From positions 2,530,200-2,594,199 of the forward strand of contig NZ_CP091740.1 of NCBI RefSeq assembly GCF_022014595.1: a stretch of DNA of 64,000 bases, in the 5' to 3' direction. The notes beneath the pieces are model-generated. The model was not told where the DNA came from, did not search any database, and saw nothing but the letters and a program-made list of their open reading frames with translations. This document shows, in pieces, positions 45,851-57,272 of the stretch. Position 1 is the first letter of the stretch; the number at the start of each line of letters is the position of its first letter. Source of the DNA: Solitalea lacus (GTDB lineage Bacteria > Bacteroidota > Bacteroidia > Sphingobacteriales > Sphingobacteriaceae). The position numbers were made by a program, and so were the translations under genes.

Positions 45851-46556
45851 ATGTTTCTAAAAGAACAAGAATATACACTTAAGGACGGGATCTATTCCTT
45901 TATAGACGAACAGCTGCTATCCGGAGATAATCTTAAATACAATAAACTCTACAATAAAATTGCATGGTCATATAATTGGTCTCAACGATTTTTCTTCTGG
46001 CTTAAGTTTGGCGGAGAACAAAAATTCAGAGAGCCTTTTTTGAATGAATTAGGCATTAAGAACACCGACAAGGTATTGGAAATTTCAACGGGTACAGGTG
46101 ACAATTTTCGATTTTTTAAATTAACATGCAGAATATTTTGTCGTAGACATTTCAATGGGAATGTTGCGGCAAGCTAAAAAGCATTTAAGAAAATGGGGGA
46201 TTAAATCAACATTAGTTCATTGCGAAGGAGAAGCTTTACCATTTGAAGATGAATATTTTGATGTAGTTTTTCATTGTGGTGGCATCTATTACTTTAATGA
46301 CAAACAAAGAGCCATTTTGGAAATGACTAGGGTTGCAAAACCAGGGACAAAACTTTTAATAGTTAACGAAACAGATAAGTTAGTTAGAGAAAACTATCAG
46401 AAAAACCCTGTATTGAAAGGGAAATTTAATGACTCCGGCAAAGCAACTATTCCAACAGACTTGGTTCCTCAAGAAATGTTGTCTATAAAATCAGAAATCA
46501 TTTGCAAAGGGTTGATGTATAAATTGACCTTTATTAAACCGAAAACAAACAGATAA
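45851..46556 (+). pseudogene. Class I SAM methyltransferase, frameshifted
   Basis: Two overlapping frames together make one methyltransferase. The first (108 codons from 45851) holds the N-terminal part and motif I (KVLEISTGTGDNFRF) and then turns into nonsense (CRIFCRRHFNGNVAAS). The second frame holds the continuation AEYFVVDISMGMLRQAKKHL, CEGEALPFEDEYFDVVFHCGG, MTRVAKPGTKLLIV to the end at 46556. The switch must fall after a TAA at 46122-46124 that is in the second frame, so about 46125-46133; removing one base there (such as 46127) gives KLTAEYFVVDIS in frame. Either a real frameshift or an assembly error. Homologous Bacteroidota proteins are known to be continuous. Confidence 0.8.
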
Positions 46557-48896: not shown

Positions 48897-49847
48897 ATGG
48901 CAAAAATATTAGCAAATGACGGAATTGATCCGGTTGGAAAGTCATTATTAGAACGTGCCGGCCATACCGTTGATACACAAAATATACCTCAAGATCAGTT
49001 AGCATCGCGTTTAAATGAATATGATGCTATCACAGTTCGATCAGCAACAAAAGTTCGTAAAGATTTAATTGATGCCACTCCAAATTTGAAATTAATTGGA
49101 AGAGGAGGCGTTGGTATGGATAATATTGATGTTGAGTATGCTAAAGGTAAGGGTCTTGCTGTTGTGAACACGCCTGCATCTTCATCTTTATCAGTTGCAG
49201 AATTGGTTTTTGCGCACTTATTTACAGGAGTTCGTTTTTTACATGACGCTAACCGTAAAATGCCAATTGAAGGCACCGATAAATTTAATGACCTAAAAAA
49301 AGCTTACACAAAAGGTATTGAGCTTCGTGGTAAAACCATTGGCATTTTAGGTTTTGGTCGTATTGGCCGTGAAGTAGCAAAGATTGCTTTAGGCTTAGGT
49401 ATGGAAGTTTTAGCCTACGATTTGTACGATTTTAATCCAGAAGTTGAATTAACGTTCATGGGTGCTTCAAAAGTTAAACTACATGTAAAAAAAGCAAGTA
49501 AAGAAGAGCTATTAAAAAACAGCGACTTTATTTCAGTTCATACTCCGGCAGTTGAAAAACCTGAATTAGGAGCAGCCGAGTTTGCATTAATGAAAGACGG
49601 TGTTTTTGTAGTGAATGCTTCTCGTGGTGGTGTAATTGACGAAAATGCATTATTAACAGCTTTAGAAAGTGGCAAAGTGGCATTTGCAGGCTTAGATGTT
49701 TTTGAAAACGAACCTAAACCCTTAGAGGCATTGTTAAAGCATCCTAAAATTTCATTAACTCCACACATTGGTGCATCAACCGGTGAAGCTCAAGAACGCA
49801 TAGGAGCTGAGTTAGCGAATTTGATTATTGATTTCTTCAGAAAATAA
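48897..49847 (+). CDS. serA: D-3-phosphoglycerate dehydrogenase, short form
   Basis: 316 residues. First step of serine synthesis, oxidising 3-phosphoglycerate. NAD motif GKTIGILGFGRIGREVAKIA, active-site Arg region VNASRGGVIDE, Glu in FENEPKP, and His in HIGASTGEAQ. It lacks the C-terminal ACT or ASB regulatory domains, so no serine feedback by that route. The 3' ~85 bp of this gene were copied into the tandem duplication downstream. Confidence 0.95.
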   Translation: MAKILANDGIDPVGKSLLERAGHTVDTQNIPQDQLASRLNEYDAITVRSATKVRKDLIDATPNLKLIGRGGVGMDNIDVEYAKGKGLAVVNTPASSSLSVAELVFAHLFTGVRFLHDANRKMPIEGTDKFNDLKKAYTKGIELRGKTIGILGFGRIGREVAKIALGLGMEVLAYDLYDFNPEVELTFMGASKVKLHVKKASKEELLKNSDFISVHTPAVEKPELGAAEFALMKDGVFVVNASRGGVIDENALLTALESGKVAFAGLDVFENEPKPLEALLKHPKISLTPHIGASTGEAQERIGAELANLIIDFFRK

Positions 49848-49871
49848 TCCTTTTTAAAGTATCACAATAGA

Positions 49872-49914
49872 GGCGGTCTCCTGATATTTAATTTCAGGAG
49901 ACCGTCTTTTTTTT
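49872..49914 (+). terminator. serA terminator
   Basis: GCGGTCTCCTGA / TCAGGAGACCGT(C) stem with one G-U pair and a run of T, 25 bp after the stop. Confidence 0.85.
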
Positions 49915-49990
49915 GTGCCCCTAGTTAAGCCTTCCTTAATTTTTCCTTTTTCTCTTATCACTTTTTTCCCACAACGTAATAGCTACAATT

Positions 49991-50014
49991 AATTGTAACC
50001 GAAGTGTTACAATT
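49991..50014 (+). promoter_or_regulatory. Operator-like palindrome, copy 1
   Basis: AATTGTAAC-N6-GTTACAATT, perfect 9-bp half-sites. The core TGTAAC-N6-GTTACA is also present upstream of the second C1 peptidase gene, with a different spacer. About 220 bp before the ATG. The dyad is of the kind bound by dimeric helix-turn-helix proteins such as the CRP/FNR fold, though spacing differs from canonical CRP. Confidence 0.45.
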
Positions 50015-50172
50015 AATAAAATCTTAACATAGATATAACAGATATTGATAAAAATTTCAACATATAATGTATACAAAATACATTTAAAGCATCAAAAGAA
50101 ACTAATAATCATGTTATTATAATTTAATATAACGTTTGCAATATAAATTTTACAATCAAACCAGAAATATTG

Positions 50173-50208
50173 TTAACAATCAAGGAAGCCGAAAATTGTT
50201 TAGAGTAG
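50173..50208 (+). promoter_or_regulatory. Conserved leader hairpin, copy 1
   Basis: AACAAT (50175-50180) and ATTGTT (50195-50200) flank CAAGGAAGCCGAAA. The ~36-nt block is essentially identical to the block 26-60 nt before the second gene. It lies 26-60 nt before the ATG. Confidence 0.45.
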
Positions 50209-50233
50209 ACATAATATGACAACCAATTTAAAA

Positions 50234-51106
50234 ATGAAAAAAAGCTTTTACTTTCTAAGCGCAGTTGCATTACTAACTGTAGCTTCTTGTCGCAAAGAAA
50301 GCGACTCAATTAATCAACAAGCGGACAACACTCACCATGCATTAGGATTACTACCTCAAACCAGGGAAAAGTATAACAGTTTTCCGAAAGTAGACGTAAA
50401 TACAATAAGAAAACAACAAGTGGAAGGTTTAAACGCAACAGAAGCTGTTCCTACTAGTTATTTTATTGACATGCCAACTCCAGGTGATCAAGGTGGTGAA
50501 TCATCATGCACCTCTTGGGCAACTGCTTATGCTGCATTAAGTTCATTCGAGCATAATTTCGACGGTATGTCTTATCCTGATGCTCAAAGAAGCCCTGCTT
50601 ATGTTTACAATCAAGTTAAGGGATCAGTTGATTGCAGTGCAGGAACTTACTTTTCTGACAATTTAAATGTTCTAAAGAATCAAGGGGCATGTAGTCTTGC
50701 TGAAATGCCTTATCAAAATGGCTTATGTAACATTCTACCTACTGCTCAACAAACTCAGGCAGCTAGTGCACATAAGATTACTAGCTGGGGAACCGTTAAC
50801 TGGAAAAACCTTACTGATGTAAAAACACTAGTGAGCTCAAATGTTCCGGTACTAGTTGGTCTTACTGTGGATGACAGTTTTTACAACATGGGCAATAACG
50901 GTTGGGTTTGGAAGAGGAAATCTGGCAGAGCATATGGGGGGCATGCTGTAGCTATAGTAGGTTATGACGATGCTAAAAATGCAGTTAAAGTACAAAATTC
51001 ATGGGGTACAGGCTGGGGCTTAGGCGGTTACTTTTGGATTGATTATTCTTTGTTAACTTCAGGAGCAACAAATCCTATTTATGAGGGTTATGCAGCGTAC
51101 AATTAA
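50234..51106 (+). CDS. C1-family (papain-like) cysteine peptidase lipoprotein, copy 1
   Basis: 290 residues from ATG 50234 (an in-frame ATG at 50216 only adds six residues before the signal). A lipoprotein signal (SFYFLSAVALLTVASC; lipobox VASC) is followed by ~60 residues of propeptide-like sequence and the papain fold: active-site Cys in ESSCTSWATAYA, His in GGHAVAIVGYDD, Asn in VQNSWGTGWGLGGYFWIDY. All three catalytic residues are present. It should be membrane-anchored, on the periplasmic or outer face. Its tandem paralog lies immediately downstream. Confidence 0.9.
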   Translation: MKKSFYFLSAVALLTVASCRKESDSINQQADNTHHALGLLPQTREKYNSFPKVDVNTIRKQQVEGLNATEAVPTSYFIDMPTPGDQGGESSCTSWATAYAALSSFEHNFDGMSYPDAQRSPAYVYNQVKGSVDCSAGTYFSDNLNVLKNQGACSLAEMPYQNGLCNILPTAQQTQAASAHKITSWGTVNWKNLTDVKTLVSSNVPVLVGLTVDDSFYNMGNNGWVWKRKSGRAYGGHAVAIVGYDDAKNAVKVQNSWGTGWGLGGYFWIDYSLLTSGATNPIYEGYAAYN

Positions 51107-51129
51107 TAGAAAATAAAATTAATTTGGAT

Positions 51130-51163
51130 AAGCTGTCCTCTGTTACCTGGGGACAGCTTTTTT
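51130..51163 (+). terminator. Terminator of C1 peptidase copy 1
   Basis: AAGCTGTCC / GGACAGCTT, 12-nt loop, then T run. A related hairpin ends the second copy. Confidence 0.8.
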
Positions 51164-51179
51164 ATGGCTGCTTTAGAAA

Positions 51180-51265
51180 ATGGTGTACATCAACCAGTGA
51201 AACTTAAGAACGCATAGCAACAGAGCAGCTAATTTGAATATTGATTTCTTTCTTCAAGAAATAGT
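51180..51265 (+). pseudogene. Relic of the 3' end of serA
   Basis: Matches serA bases ~49769-49845 at most positions: GGTGTACATCAACCAGTGAA against GGTGCATCAACCGGTGAA, AAGAACGCATAG in both, AATTTGAATATTGATTTC against AATTTGATTATTGATTTC. It contains frameshifts, so it is a non-coding scar that marks the upstream end of the duplicated unit. It starts right after the terminator of the first peptidase gene. Confidence 0.8.
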
Positions 51266-51380
51266 ACCTTTTAAAAGTATCAATAAACGATGCTGTCTCC
51301 CGATTTTACAGCAGACATCCTTGTTTTTTGAGCTCATTATTAAGCCTTCATTCATACCTCATTTTTTCTTTCTACCACTC

Positions 51381-51404
51381 TATTGTAACAGATTGGTTAC
51401 AGTT
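51381..51404 (+). promoter_or_regulatory. Operator-like palindrome, copy 2
   Basis: TATTGTAAC-N6-GTTACAGTT. The core TGTAAC/GTTACA half-sites are intact while the spacer (AGATTG instead of CGAAGT) and flanks have changed. About 260 bp before the ATG. Confidence 0.45.
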
Positions 51405-51601
51405 AACAAACACCTAACGTTCCCGTTTTAGTATGATCAATAAAATTCTAACATACATATATAGGATATTGATAAATAATTCAATTTATAATGTATACAA
51501 AATATATTTATATATAACGAAACATCTGACCCTCACGATTTTGCCTCCATTAAATAATAACAAGTAACAAAAACCTTACAACAAACCTTAAGACATTGTT
51601 T

Positions 51602-51637
51602 TTAACAATCAAGGAAGCCGAAAATTGTTTAGAGTAG
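51602..51637 (+). promoter_or_regulatory. Conserved leader hairpin, copy 2
   Basis: Same AACAAT...ATTGTT block (51604-51609 and 51624-51629) with the same 14-nt loop as upstream of the first gene, 26-60 nt before the ATG. Confidence 0.45.
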
Positions 51638-51663
51638 GCGTAAGATCAATCCAATCTTTTAAA

Positions 51664-52536
51664 ATGAAAAGAAGTATTTATTTACTAAGTGTAGCAGTAG
51701 CGTTACTTACTGTTGCTTCTTGTCGCAAAGAGAGCGACACAGTTAATCAACAAGTAAACCAAACTGATCATGTGTTAGGTTTACTATTTCAAACTAAGGA
51801 AAAGTATAACAGTTTTCCGAAAGTAGATGTAAATGCGATAAGAAAGCAATATGTGGAAAGCGAAAACGCAACAGAAGCTGTTCCTACTAGTTATTTTATT
51901 GACATGCCGACCCCGGGTGATCAAAAGAGTGAATCATCGTGCACATCATGGGCAACTGCCTATGCTGCAGCAAGTTCATTCGAGCATAATTTCGATGGTA
52001 TGAATTACCCTCAGGCTTACAGAAGCCCATCTTATGTTTACAATCAAATTGTTCAAGGTAATTGCGGTTGGGGAACTTATTTTTCTGATAATTTAAATAT
52101 TTTAAAAAATCAAGGAGCATGCAGCCTTAATGAAATGCCTTATACTGATGGTGTTTGCAATTTACAGCCGACTTCTCAACAAGCACAGGCAGCTAGTACA
52201 CATAAGATTAGTAACTGGGGAACAGTTAATTGGAGAAATCTTACTGATGTAAAAACATTAGTGAGCTCAAAAGTTCCAGTGTTGCTTGGATTTATGGTGG
52301 ATGACAGTTTTTATGACATGGGTAAAACCGGTTGGGTTTGGAAAAGGAAATCAGGCAGACAATACGGAGGACATGCTGTAGCAATAATGGGTTATGATGA
52401 CGCTAAGCAGGCCTTTAAAGTGCAAAATTCATGGGGTACAGGCTGGGGCCTAGGAGGTTACTTTTGGATTGATTATGCTTTGTTAAGTGCAGGAGCAGCA
52501 ACTCCTGTTTATGAAGCTTATGTAGCGTACAATTAA
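51664..52536 (+). CDS. C1-family (papain-like) cysteine peptidase lipoprotein, copy 2
   Basis: 290 residues from ATG 51664 (an open extension upstream to 51625 is the leader). Signal SIYLLSVAVALLTVASC with lipobox VASC. Catalytic Cys in ESSCTSWATAYA, His in GGHAVAIMGYDD, Asn in VQNSWGTGWGLGGYFWIDY, all present. It is the same length as the first copy. Changes concentrate in the propeptide region and in surface stretches such as KSESS for GGESS before the Cys, which may shift specificity. Both copies look functional. Confidence 0.9.
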   Translation: MKRSIYLLSVAVALLTVASCRKESDTVNQQVNQTDHVLGLLFQTKEKYNSFPKVDVNAIRKQYVESENATEAVPTSYFIDMPTPGDQKSESSCTSWATAYAAASSFEHNFDGMNYPQAYRSPSYVYNQIVQGNCGWGTYFSDNLNILKNQGACSLNEMPYTDGVCNLQPTSQQAQAASTHKISNWGTVNWRNLTDVKTLVSSKVPVLLGFMVDDSFYDMGKTGWVWKRKSGRQYGGHAVAIMGYDDAKQAFKVQNSWGTGWGLGGYFWIDYALLSAGAATPVYEAYVAYN

Positions 52537-52561
52537 TTAAGAAATAAAATTTATTTTATAT

Positions 52562-52593
52562 AAGGCTGTCCTTGTTAAAGGGGGCAGCTTTTA
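52562..52593 (+). terminator. Terminator of C1 peptidase copy 2
   Basis: AAGGCTGTCC / GGGGCAGCTT stem (with G-U pairs) and short T run, just touching the end of the convergent helicase gene. Confidence 0.65.
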
Positions 52594-54519
52594 TTGTAAA
52601 TAATTTAACTCCCAGGCACTTTGATAAGCATTATTTGCTTGTACATAAGTTAAAAAGTCAGCATAAAATGAATGTGAAGACAACGTTGCACTATCTCCAA
52701 TTACAAGCAGTTTCTTTTTTGCCCGGGTAAGGGCAACATTCATCCGACGAGTATCGGCCAAAAAGCCAATTTCATTCTTGCCGTTGCTTCTAACCAAACT
52801 AATGGCAATCAAGTCACATTCCTGCCCTTGGAAACCATCAACTGTATTAAAACTTATCTTGTCTTTTAGTAATGTCAGGTTATCAAAGTTCATCGATTGT
52901 TCTGCCAGATAACCTACCTGAGCTTTGTAAGGAGAAATAACACCGACTCGTTTAAGGTTCTCCCAAGCCCTCTCATCAACGATGCTTAATTGCTGTAAAA
53001 AGTCGTTTAAATAATTCAGCAGCAAATTCCCTTCTTCCGGATTACATGCACTCCGTCCATTCTCTGTTTTCTCATCAAAACCGCAACCTGCGGTATCAAT
53101 AAATAGGAAGGGAGTTTCATCATTAATTCCAAGAGTTCGGGTTGCAACCGATTCACAGGCAGCGAGCTTACCATTATAAAACTGCTGGTTTGAAAACTCC
53201 ATAATGGATTGATTCATCCTGTATTGAACCTTCAAAAGCGTATCAACTTTTTGTCGTGAAATCACCTTTTCAAACAACGTCACATTTAAACCTTGTTTAC
53301 CTGCTTCATATGATTTAACAGTAGGAGGGAGCTGATGATGATCACCGGCCATTATTACTCGCTCGGCTTTCATAAGCGGAATCCAACAAGCCGGCTCCAA
53401 GGCTTGAGCAGCTTCATCGATAAAAACGGTTTTGAAGGTTCGCTCACGCAACAAGGGGTTATTTGCACCAACAAGTGTACATGCTATTACATTGGCTTGC
53501 GAAAGAATATCACTAACAATGTAATCTTCAAGCTTTAAGGCCTCTTGCTTTAACGATCGAGCCTCATTAAACAATAACTGACGTTGTTTGCTTTCTTCCT
53601 TTCCAAAATTCCGTTTGTACTTAAAAGCCATGCTTCTGAATTCCTCAGCTTTTTTCCGCAAGTTTTTAATATCTCCGAAATATTCATGCTGGGTAATCTT
53701 ATTATCGATCACCAAATCCGCAAGATGCTCTCCAACTCGCGCCGGATGGCCAATCCTAACAACATTCAAACCTTTTTCTGAAAGCCTTTCACACAACAAA
53801 TCTACAGCAGTATTACTGGGTGCAGTTACCAGAACTTGTTTCTCGTTCTTGGCAATTAAATTGATGGCCTCAATAAAGGTTGTGGTTTTACCGGTACCAG
53901 GAGGACCGTGTACAATAGCAACATCCACCGCATTTAGCATATTGCCGATGGACTCATTCTGAGATTGATTAAGATTTCCAAAGGATGGGATTGGATGATC
54001 TCCAGAAAATCTGGCCGGCACATGCCCCAGTAATAGTTCTCTTAATTCAGCCAAACGGTTATTTTGAGCATCAGCTACTAACCGCAAAGTGTCATCCATC
54101 TCTTTGTATGAAGTTTCATCAAAGAGCAGATCAACACCAATTTTCCCGTCGTTAATCCATTCGGGAAGTTCGTCAGCGTTAAGATATATACGTAATCGAT
54201 CCTTTAAGGCTGTGCCTATAACACCTTCAATTCGCTGTTTGGCTGCCTGATTATTTACATTGCAAAATAAAGATGCACGTTTTCCTGATTGTAATTGATG
54301 GTCTTTTTCTTTTGCAGAGGTGCGTTCTAGCTCCACAAATACCTGCTCACCCCGCCCGTAACCTGTTTGTGTAATTTTAACCGGATACCAACTACTGCCG
54401 TTTCTAACACGCTCACTAATTTCAGATTCCACAACAAACTTTCGGTATTGTTGTAAATCTTCTTCCTTCTCTATTTTAAGTACTTTTCGTAAGTGCTTTA
54501 ACTCTTCAGCAGCGGTCAT
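52591..54519 (-). CDS. Upf1-like superfamily 1 helicase (AAA domain-containing)
   Basis: 642 residues from ATG 54519 (an in-frame TTG at 54552 adds eleven). An N-terminal beta-barrel region (~1-180) like that of IGHMBP2/Upf1 is followed by the helicase core: Walker A GPPGTGKTTT, motif II DEAAQALEPA, motif III GDHHQLPPTV, LKVQYRMNQSIMEFSNQQFYNG-type motif IV (split), SPYKAQVGYL, TVDGFQGQE and NVALTRAKKKLLVIGD. An ATP-dependent 5'-3' nucleic-acid helicase by family. All motifs intact. Confidence 0.92.
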   Translation of the reverse strand: MTAAEELKHLRKVLKIEKEEDLQQYRKFVVESEISERVRNGSSWYPVKITQTGYGRGEQVFVELERTSAKEKDHQLQSGKRASLFCNVNNQAAKQRIEGVIGTALKDRLRIYLNADELPEWINDGKIGVDLLFDETSYKEMDDTLRLVADAQNNRLAELRELLLGHVPARFSGDHPIPSFGNLNQSQNESIGNMLNAVDVAIVHGPPGTGKTTTFIEAINLIAKNEKQVLVTAPSNTAVDLLCERLSEKGLNVVRIGHPARVGEHLADLVIDNKITQHEYFGDIKNLRKKAEEFRSMAFKYKRNFGKEESKQRQLLFNEARSLKQEALKLEDYIVSDILSQANVIACTLVGANNPLLRERTFKTVFIDEAAQALEPACWIPLMKAERVIMAGDHHQLPPTVKSYEAGKQGLNVTLFEKVISRQKVDTLLKVQYRMNQSIMEFSNQQFYNGKLAACESVATRTLGINDETPFLFIDTAGCGFDEKTENGRSACNPEEGNLLLNYLNDFLQQLSIVDERAWENLKRVGVISPYKAQVGYLAEQSMNFDNLTLLKDKISFNTVDGFQGQECDLIAISLVRSNGKNEIGFLADTRRMNVALTRAKKKLLVIGDSATLSSHSFYADFLTYVQANNAYQSAWELNYLQ

Positions 54520-55420: not shown

Positions 55421-56281
55421 TTATCCCTTTTGGGGAACTCTCTTAAATGTAAAATACACGTAAGTATTAATTTTTTCACCCAAAGTGGTGCCGGGCTCAA
55501 AGCGTATTTTGTTTTCTACAAAATGTTTAATGTATTTAAATGTATTGGGTAAAATTTCTTCTGTTCCTCCCCAAGCCATAAGCCCCACATCAAATGAACC
55601 TATCTTACCATTTTCACGGAGGATAAATTTGCCGGAATACAAATGCTCATGCTGAGTGTTTGCGTTAATCTCAGTAATCTTAAACTCAATACGTCCATCT
55701 GAAGCAGTTGCTGTGTCAATTCTCACTTCATTTGAAAGTGGCTTTGCCAAAGGAAACTTATCTGCAGTAAAGAAATACTCTGGTGATTTTTTACATGAAT
55801 CACTTAACTTTTTCAAAAACAAGGTATCCTTAGCTGTCAATTCCTGCAACTTTGTTAACTGATTTTTGCTAATCTTTTTGAAAACTTTTTCAGTTACAAA
55901 AAACAAATGATGTGGTTTATTGATCGAGTCTCCTTTGTTTGGAATATATTGAAGAACTAATGTATCCGTTTTCAGTTTTACGATACGATACTTATACTTA
56001 TCCCATTTAATAATGGAATCAGGACGAACGAAAATGCTCTTAAAATAATCTTTTGGTGTTTTAACCGTCGCAAAGCCTTTATCATCTACAAACATCATCC
56101 AATCAGCTTTATAACGCTCACCATAAGTGCTGTAAAGACCACCTTCAAGATTGGTTCGGTTTATTTCAACCCAATTATTATTTAATTTCTTTCTGAAGTC
56201 AGCCTCTTTCTCTTCGTATTTAGAAGAACAAGAAGCTCCAAAGAACAATAAGATAATCAGCGTTATACCCAAATTTTTCAT
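55421..56281 (-). CDS. Lipoprotein of unknown function, paralog A
   Basis: 286 residues with lipobox FGASC after a short hydrophobic stretch (GITLIILLFFGASC). Common blocks with paralog B upstream: LNNNWVEINRTNLEGGLYSTYGERYKADW, YRIVKLKTDTLVLQY, LTAKDTLFLKKLSDSCKK, YSGKFILRENGKIGSFDVGLMAWG and FVENKIRFEPGTTLGEKINTYVYFTFKR (each split here only by size). Beta-rich, no catalytic signature known to me. Outer-membrane or periplasmic anchoring is expected. Confidence 0.7.
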   Translation of the reverse strand: MKNLGITLIILLFFGASCSSKYEEKEADFRKKLNNNWVEINRTNLEGGLYSTYGERYKADWMMFVDDKGFATVKTPKDYFKSIFVRPDSIIKWDKYKYRIVKLKTDTLVLQYIPNKGDSINKPHHLFFVTEKVFKKISKNQLTKLQELTAKDTLFLKKLSDSCKKSPEYFFTADKFPLAKPLSNEVRIDTATASDGRIEFKITEINANTQHEHLYSGKFILRENGKIGSFDVGLMAWGGTEEILPNTFKYIKHFVENKIRFEPGTTLGEKINTYVYFTFKRVPQKG

Positions 56282-56378
56282 GGTGCCGAAAATAAGCCAA
56301 ATACTTCTGACTTAAAAATTGTAAAGATTAGAAGATATATTCCTGAGTTTTTAAAACCAGGAATTGATACTGAGAAAA

Positions 56379-57272
56379 TTAACTATTGGTCTTTGGTAAG
56401 CGCACATAGGTAAAATATACATAAGAATTATGTTTTACGCCCAAGGTTGTTGCCGGTTCAAACTTTACTTTGCTTTCAACTACATGCTTAATATAGTTAA
56501 AAGTGCTGGGCAATATTATTTCATCATCCCACATAGTCATCAAGCCTACATCAAAGGCTGCAATTTTGCCGTTTTCCCGAACAATAAATCTTCCTGAGTA
56601 AGCATGCGAATAACGAGTATTTGAGTCCCAATCGTAAATAAAGAATTCAATATTATTTTTGGGTCCATCAAAGCCCATAGAAAACAAGGCCGTATCTATT
56701 TTAATATCACTCGACAAAGAAGTGGCATGGGGGAGTTTTTCTCCAATAAAATGAAACGTAGGAACTCTTCGGCACGAATCGCTTAGCCGCCTTAAAAATA
56801 AGGTATCATTCTTAGTCAACTGTTTGAGCTTACTCAACTGTTCAGGTTGAGATTTATTGAAAAGGTTACTACTTATAAATAACAAACGATGTGATTTATT
56901 AATCGTATTTCGCAATGAAGGATTATACTGCAATACTAATGTATCCTGATTTACTTTAATAATTCTGTATTGGAATTGGTTCCATTGCAAAATGGAATCA
57001 TTGGTAATTTTAATCTTACTAAAAATTTCATGAGAGGCCACCTTACAAGTTGCAAAACCTAAGGAATCAATTTTTAAATTCCAATCAGGCGTATAACGTT
57101 CTCCTATACTGCTATAAAGGCCATCCATAATATTACTGCGCTTTATTTCTACCCAATTATTATTAAGTAATTTTTTAAAAGCTAATTGCCGTTCAGAATA
57201 TTGATGGGTACAAGCAAGTGTAAATAATACCAAAATGAAGATTGATAATCTTGGTTTCGATAGATGTTTCAT
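56379..57272 (-). CDS. Lipoprotein of unknown function, paralog B
   Basis: 297 residues, lipobox-like FTLAC after IFILVLFTLAC. Aligns along its length with paralog A (LLNNNWVEIKRSNIMDGLYS, GERYTPDW, YRIIKVNQDTLVLQYN, NDTLFLRRLSDSCRR, ENGKIAAFDVGLMTMWDD). Tandem duplication, about 97 bp apart, so possibly one transcript. Role unknown. Confidence 0.7.
   Translation of the reverse strand: MKHLSKPRLSIFILVLFTLACTHQYSERQLAFKKLLNNNWVEIKRSNIMDGLYSSIGERYTPDWNLKIDSLGFATCKVASHEIFSKIKITNDSILQWNQFQYRIIKVNQDTLVLQYNPSLRNTINKSHRLLFISSNLFNKSQPEQLSKLKQLTKNDTLFLRRLSDSCRRVPTFHFIGEKLPHATSLSSDIKIDTALFSMGFDGPKNNIEFFIYDWDSNTRYSHAYSGRFIVRENGKIAAFDVGLMTMWDDEIILPSTFNYIKHVVESKVKFEPATTLGVKHNSYVYFTYVRLPKTNS

Follow-up and report, generated by a model that had tools for sequence, protein, structure and literature searches.

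A tandemly duplicated unit carrying a serA relic, a DUF805b RNA leader and a predicted papain-family peptidase gene in Solitalea lacus

The duplicated unit and its serA relic

Within a window of 64,000 nucleotides from the genome of Solitalea lacus (assembly GCF_022014595.1, contig NZ_CP091740.1, positions 2,530,200 to 2,594,199), two genes for predicted C1 (papain family) peptidases lie side by side on the forward strand, downstream of an intact serA-like 2-hydroxyacid dehydrogenase gene (open reading frame 48897-49847, + strand; Pfam PF02826 and PF00389), and each belongs to one copy of a unit of about 1.4 kb that has been duplicated in tandem. As delimited by repeats and alignment scores, the upstream unit, copy A, occupies 49769-51166 (+), with a left end possibly at 49659, and the downstream unit, copy B, occupies 51181-52597 (+). 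The left end of the unit is formed by the final ~80 bases of serA, which are followed by the serA terminator (49863-49915, +), an inverted repeat with a T run and 26-nucleotide arms that are 81% complementary. A degraded version of this serA end and terminator precedes the second peptidase gene at 51181-51335, comprising a relic of the last ~80 bases of the gene at 51181-51265 (+; possible extension 51170-51183) and a relic of the terminator at 51267-51335 (+).

The significance of these alignments was assessed with 500 dinucleotide shuffles each. The serA tail (49769-49850) aligns with 51180-51265 at a score of 79, against a shuffle maximum of 25, the terminator part aligns with its relic at 44 against 24, and the intergenic spacers of copies A and B align at 143 against 40. 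Furthermore, repeat families recur at a near-constant offset (1413-1433) from 49771 through the second peptidase gene, and the homology continues 3' of each stop codon into a small terminator that matches between the copies and in copy A is a small hairpin with a T run 3' of the gene (51131-51162, +, from alignment and sequence reading), before ending at about 51161-51166 and 52592-52597, as judged by alignment and by eye. The shuffle-tested alignments and constant-offset repeats thus bear out the initial annotation, which had described a tandem duplication of about 1.4 kb with a serA relic at its junction and had included the end of serA in the unit. Its further statement that the downstream copy is the derived one holds in a positional sense, the copy behind the relic being the extra one, but neither tandem copy is the original by descent, so that the relic shows position and not ancestry.

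The left boundary may lie further upstream. The stretch 51170-51183 matches serA 49659-49672 at 13 of 14 bases, a weak match (score 23, shuffle maximum 22) on which the relic may start about 110 bases earlier and have lost about 96 bases inside, a reading that is loosely held. In its direct repeat, near-constant offset and partial gene at the joint, the arrangement resembles ordinary tandem gene duplications whose junction holds a truncated neighbouring gene, and shows no difference of principle from them.

The two peptidases

The peptidase genes of copy A (50234-51106, +; PF00112, E 5.6e-14) and copy B (51664-52536, +; PF00112, E 1.4e-13) each encode 290 residues, and both domain matches exceed the curated cut-off of 20.7 bits. 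The open reading frame of copy A was listed from 50216; the start common to copy B and to the homologue in Solitalea agri is 50234. All three proteins contain the Cys-His-Asn triad together with an oxyanion Gln six residues before the Cys, a spacing as in papain, with Gln, Cys, His and Asn at residues 86, 92, 237 and 255 of copy A and 87, 93, 237 and 255 of copy B. The catalytic Cys, His and Asn that had been noted at the outset are therefore confirmed, with the Gln in addition. Both copies also share the N-terminal sequence LTVASCRKES, a signal with a candidate lipobox Cys (lipobox ASC in copy A), and their sequences point to C1 lipoprotein-like enzymes, predicted to act as peptidases.

A search of the peptidases against NCBIfam gave no useful family, its lipoprotein model matching copy A weakly (22.1 against a cut-off of 50) and copy B not at all. 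Among proteins of solved structure, the closest in sequence is PDB 3ois, a bacterial cysteine protease that we take to be xylellain of Xylella (E 4.6e-17 over residues 70-275). The likeness lies in the domain and in the positions of the Gln, Cys, His and Asn, whereas the Solitalea copies differ by their lipoprotein-like N-terminus with its lipobox, by distant sequence and by great rarity. Among 301 genomes sampled from the family, relatives at E 1e-30 or better occur in four, in two of these at just 35% identity, and close relatives occur in two, the window's own genome and S. agri. Two more, larger relatives are present in the window's own genome, at 34-36%.

Copies A and B are 78.5% identical in protein, with a nonsynonymous divergence (dN) of 0.133, a synonymous divergence (dS) of 0.526 and a dN/dS of 0.25; copy A and S. 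agri are 85.9% identical (dN 0.081, dS 0.541), and copy B and S. agri 78.9% (dN 0.135, dS 0.639). Branch lengths in dN derived from these pairwise values are about 0.094 for copy B, 0.040 for copy A and 0.042 for S. agri. Copy B changes about twice as fast in protein, yet is still constrained; both copies are under purifying selection, in agreement with the earlier proposal that both genes have been retained.

DUF805b RNA in the two leaders

Outside the coding sequence, the unit is best conserved in a DUF805b RNA (Rfam RF02914, clan CL00115), which the initial annotation had overlooked, lying in copy A at 50179-50211 (+; 30.7 bits, E 5.8e-6) and in copy B at 51608-51640 (+; 33.3 bits, E 7.3e-7). 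First seen as an extended stretch of uninterrupted identity shared by the spacers of copies A and B, of which S. agri keeps 31 of 33 bases, the motif is on the same strand as the gene and ends about 22-25 nucleotides 5' of the ATG. Both matches span all 35 model positions (1-35) and resemble the Rfam element in the consensus GGAAGCCGAAAA...AGAGUAGGC, in the place of stem 1 and in the position before the start codon; they differ from it by scores under the gathering threshold, by a three-pair stem 1 and, in copy A, by a broken pair in stem 2. Before the nearest outside peptidase relatives (L147 and L148), no DUF805b leader was found. A match to the L20_leader model (18 of 58.7 bits) was set aside as chance.

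A survey of the RNA detected RF02914 at E 0.001 in 39 of 60 genomes, among them that of the window, with 29 of the 60 over the cut-off, and in none of 14 control genomes; at E 0.1, seven of the 14 controls gave matches, none over the cut-off. From 102 matches listed, 93 sites were examined (90 surveyed sites together with copies A, B and S. agri), nine weak ones being left out. The three bases before GAAAA pair with the three after AGAGUA to form stem 2 and, because this stem lies across stem 1, the fold is a pseudoknot. Stem 2 is fully paired at 76 of the 93 sites (2000 shuffles: mean 44.6, maximum 56) and, with one site per genome, at 33 of 37 (shuffle maximum 27); with its partner slid by 1-3 bases, full pairing occurs at 2 of 93 sites at most. 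Its pairs co-vary on both sides, and stem 1 is paired in 297 of 372 cells (shuffle maximum 213). There is strong covariation for a DUF805b pseudoknot just before the start codon; the Rfam structure line for RF02914, as printed, gives stem 1 only.

The two leaders of the window are not alike in this fold. On the 3' side of stem 2, copy A reads GAC rather than GGC, which breaks the middle pair (C-A), while stem 2 is intact in copy B (GCC/GGC) and in S. agri. Copy A is the sole exception among the 93 sites, the other 92 having a standard middle pair.

At 74 of the 90 surveyed sites an open reading frame of at least 35 residues starts within 75 nucleotides (median 21), and 16 sites are without one. 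The 74 downstream proteins belong to no single Pfam family (DUF6520 4, rhodopsin 3, DUF805 2, TM2 2), and single matches among them include Peptidase_S8, Neprosin, Peptidase_C70, C58, C39_2 and Patatin. By a crude hydrophobicity rule, a hydrophobic N-terminus was called in 33 of 47 downstream proteins of at least 100 residues, against 23 of 83 other open reading frames of the same loci (Fisher p 3e-6), and in 16 of 55 open reading frames of the window. This association suggests a role for the DUF805b RNA at genes for exported and membrane proteins. The window's genome itself has four RF02914 matches, namely those of copies A and B, another preceding a patatin-like gene (L079, to which we assigned the sole Pfam Patatin match) and a fourth in front of a gene for a small secreted protein.

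Several further occurrences were seen in the survey. In three genomes from other genera, a rhodopsin gene follows the RNA directly (L054, L108 and L135, loci by eye; PF01036 in 3 of 74) and, again by eye, the RNA lies before short peptides resembling double-glycine leader peptides at L056, L071, L086 and L097. In addition, a DUF805b-like core with two mismatches to the 22-base core of the window precedes a small secreted repeat protein at about 1501-1540 of L025 (G000:C1:2014175), and is not among the Rfam matches of its genome. The DUF805b RNA reportedly stems from a 2017 paper. A literature search, judged partly by titles, gave no account of its function, nor of DUF805b as an RNA.

Age of the duplication

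S. agri has one peptidase copy, in the gene order serA, peptidase, purB. In the other two Solitalea genomes, serA stands beside purB without a peptidase (G003) or is followed by a Fic-like gene and a helicase gene (G002). This gene (L045:3512-4537), which by its motif looks like one for a Fic-type protein, sits behind serA in the position that the peptidases take in the window.

The DNA behind the S. agri gene (about 6906-6995 of L022) has its best match in the 64-kb window, both strands searched, in the serA relic (score 49) and its second best in the real serA tail (38), with everything else in the window at 30 or less. In the reverse search, the relic scores 49 there; the rest of the 12.9-kb locus gives no more than 29, and a further 22.8 kb of S. 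agri DNA no more than 33. None of 500 shuffles reaches the score of the match to the relic or of that to the serA tail. The same segment gives no match to the serA tail of S. agri itself. The match covers about 49 columns; part of it may be the purB terminator, and most matching bases precede that terminator. A serA relic behind the S. agri gene makes the doubling older than the separation of that gene from copy A. The homology shows that the duplication is no young event confined to the window's genome, since the single gene of S. agri is backed by a relic, and the order of events that we infer has S. agri losing copy B.

The derived residues shared in the proteins point the same way, with eight for copy A and S. 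agri, one for copies A and B and none for copy B and S. agri when polarised by the closest outgroup (L147). Polarisation by the majority of 16 distant outgroup rows gives 15, 2 and 4 respectively, which is weak because of the fast copy B branch and the distance of the outgroups.

Several observations weigh against this placement. The gene tree is not significant, since maximum likelihood joins copy A with S. agri at 66/88 with one outgroup and copy B with S. agri at 91/68 with 16 outgroup rows, and the approximately unbiased (AU) test rejects none of the three groupings in either outgroup set. Fourfold sites lean slightly to copies A and B together (16 against 11 and 12), a lean that could reflect gene conversion. 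Dating by gene tree was abandoned, as the groupings conflict between outgroup sets, and dating by the serA relic excludes only an origin on the side of S. agri and G003.

Descent or transfer between lineages

How the block came to be present in both lineages can be read in two ways that are about equally likely, each falling somewhat short of an even chance. The first is that the duplication took place in the window's lineage and that the block of leader, peptidase gene and relic then moved horizontally to the S. agri lineage. Between copy A and S. agri, codons for the same residue differ at 67 of 237 positions in the peptidase, fewer than in serA (124 of 283, Fisher p 2.6e-4), serC (128 of 309, p 0.0016) or rpe (97 of 202, p 3e-5); codon adaptation is alike in these genes (0.61 for the peptidase, against 0.66, 0.59 and 0.62). 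The peptidase leader aligns between the species at 215, against 71 for the rpe-serC spacer of like length. Moreover, serA gives the tree ((window,G002),(agri,G003)), starred, yet the peptidase is found only in the window's genome and S. agri, and the relic tail rejects a grouping with the serA of S. agri or G003 (AU p 0.026). However, the dS of pnp is lower still (0.437 against 0.541 for the peptidase), placement of the relic outside the window and G002 is not rejected (p 0.226), and no mobile element appears among the open reading frames listed around the genes, where no search aimed at such elements was made.

On the second reading, the unit was already doubled before the four Solitalea genomes diverged and was passed on vertically; G002 and G003 would have lost it completely and S. 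agri by half. The presence of the relic in both lineages agrees with this, as does the lability of the spot downstream of serA, which holds a Fic-like gene in G002 and nothing in G003. Against it stand the synonymous divergence of the peptidase, which is below that of its neighbours, and the relic itself, which is closest to the serA of the window (66 of 78 bases shared, compared with 53-57 in the other serA genes).

An accidental likeness between AT-rich sequences could also account for the S. agri scrap, in which case the duplication would be confined to the lineage of the window, but this is improbable: the match is just ~49 columns long and part of it may be a purB terminator common to G003 (by eye), but it is a reciprocal best match at a collinear place, with the genuine serA tail second best and no shuffle in 500 equalling either score.

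Proposed history and significance

The explanation preferred here, to which we assign a probability of roughly 0.7 as a whole, combines an old tandem doubling, decay of the relic, loss of copy B in S. agri, unlike copies tuned by RNA, and exported enzymes. The ancestral unit would have comprised the 3' end of serA with its terminator, a long leader with the DUF805b pseudoknot, an exported C1 peptidase gene and a small terminator of its own. This unit doubled in tandem, and the serA piece of the second copy decayed to a relic; the doubling would have come before the S. agri peptidase gene parted from copy A, and S. agri would then have lost copy B and kept a scrap of the relic. Copies A and B both remain constrained by purifying selection, with B the faster in protein. 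Each peptidase gene is probably its own transcription unit, its translation probably tuned by the DUF805b pseudoknot before the start codon, and the enzymes are probably exported as lipoproteins anchored in the envelope or at the surface that cut proteins outside the cytoplasm.

Because the middle pair of the pseudoknot is lost in copy A, copies A and B are probably regulated differently, B being under the intact control. Three points count against such unlike control by RNA: both window RNAs score under the Rfam gathering score of 35.6 (the S. agri leader, at 39.7, is above it), stem 1 has only three pairs in these leaders, and the loss in copy A concerns one base and could be tolerable. A broader proposal, that DUF805b is a Bacteroidota-wide pseudoknot in the initiation regions of mRNAs for exported proteins that controls their translation, and that duplication let one peptidase copy escape it, is at this stage speculative and rather unlikely.

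The duplication itself is ordinary, a textbook case; its interest lies in the pair of intact and broken RNAs and in the link of the RNA to exported proteins. The unit carries a little-studied RNA element, and two similar genes side by side, one with an intact and one with a broken pseudoknot, offer a natural comparison of its effect.

Other observations in the window

At 45851-46556, a methyltransferase-like sequence is divided between two overlapping open reading frames that lie in different frames (45851-46177 and 46155-46556), as a frameshift or an error in the sequence would produce. A few kb downstream of the peptidases, 55421-57272 on the - strand holds a second tandem pair of paralogues, adjacent and similar lipoprotein-like genes of 286 and 297 residues, both with the motifs NNNWVEI and GLYS.

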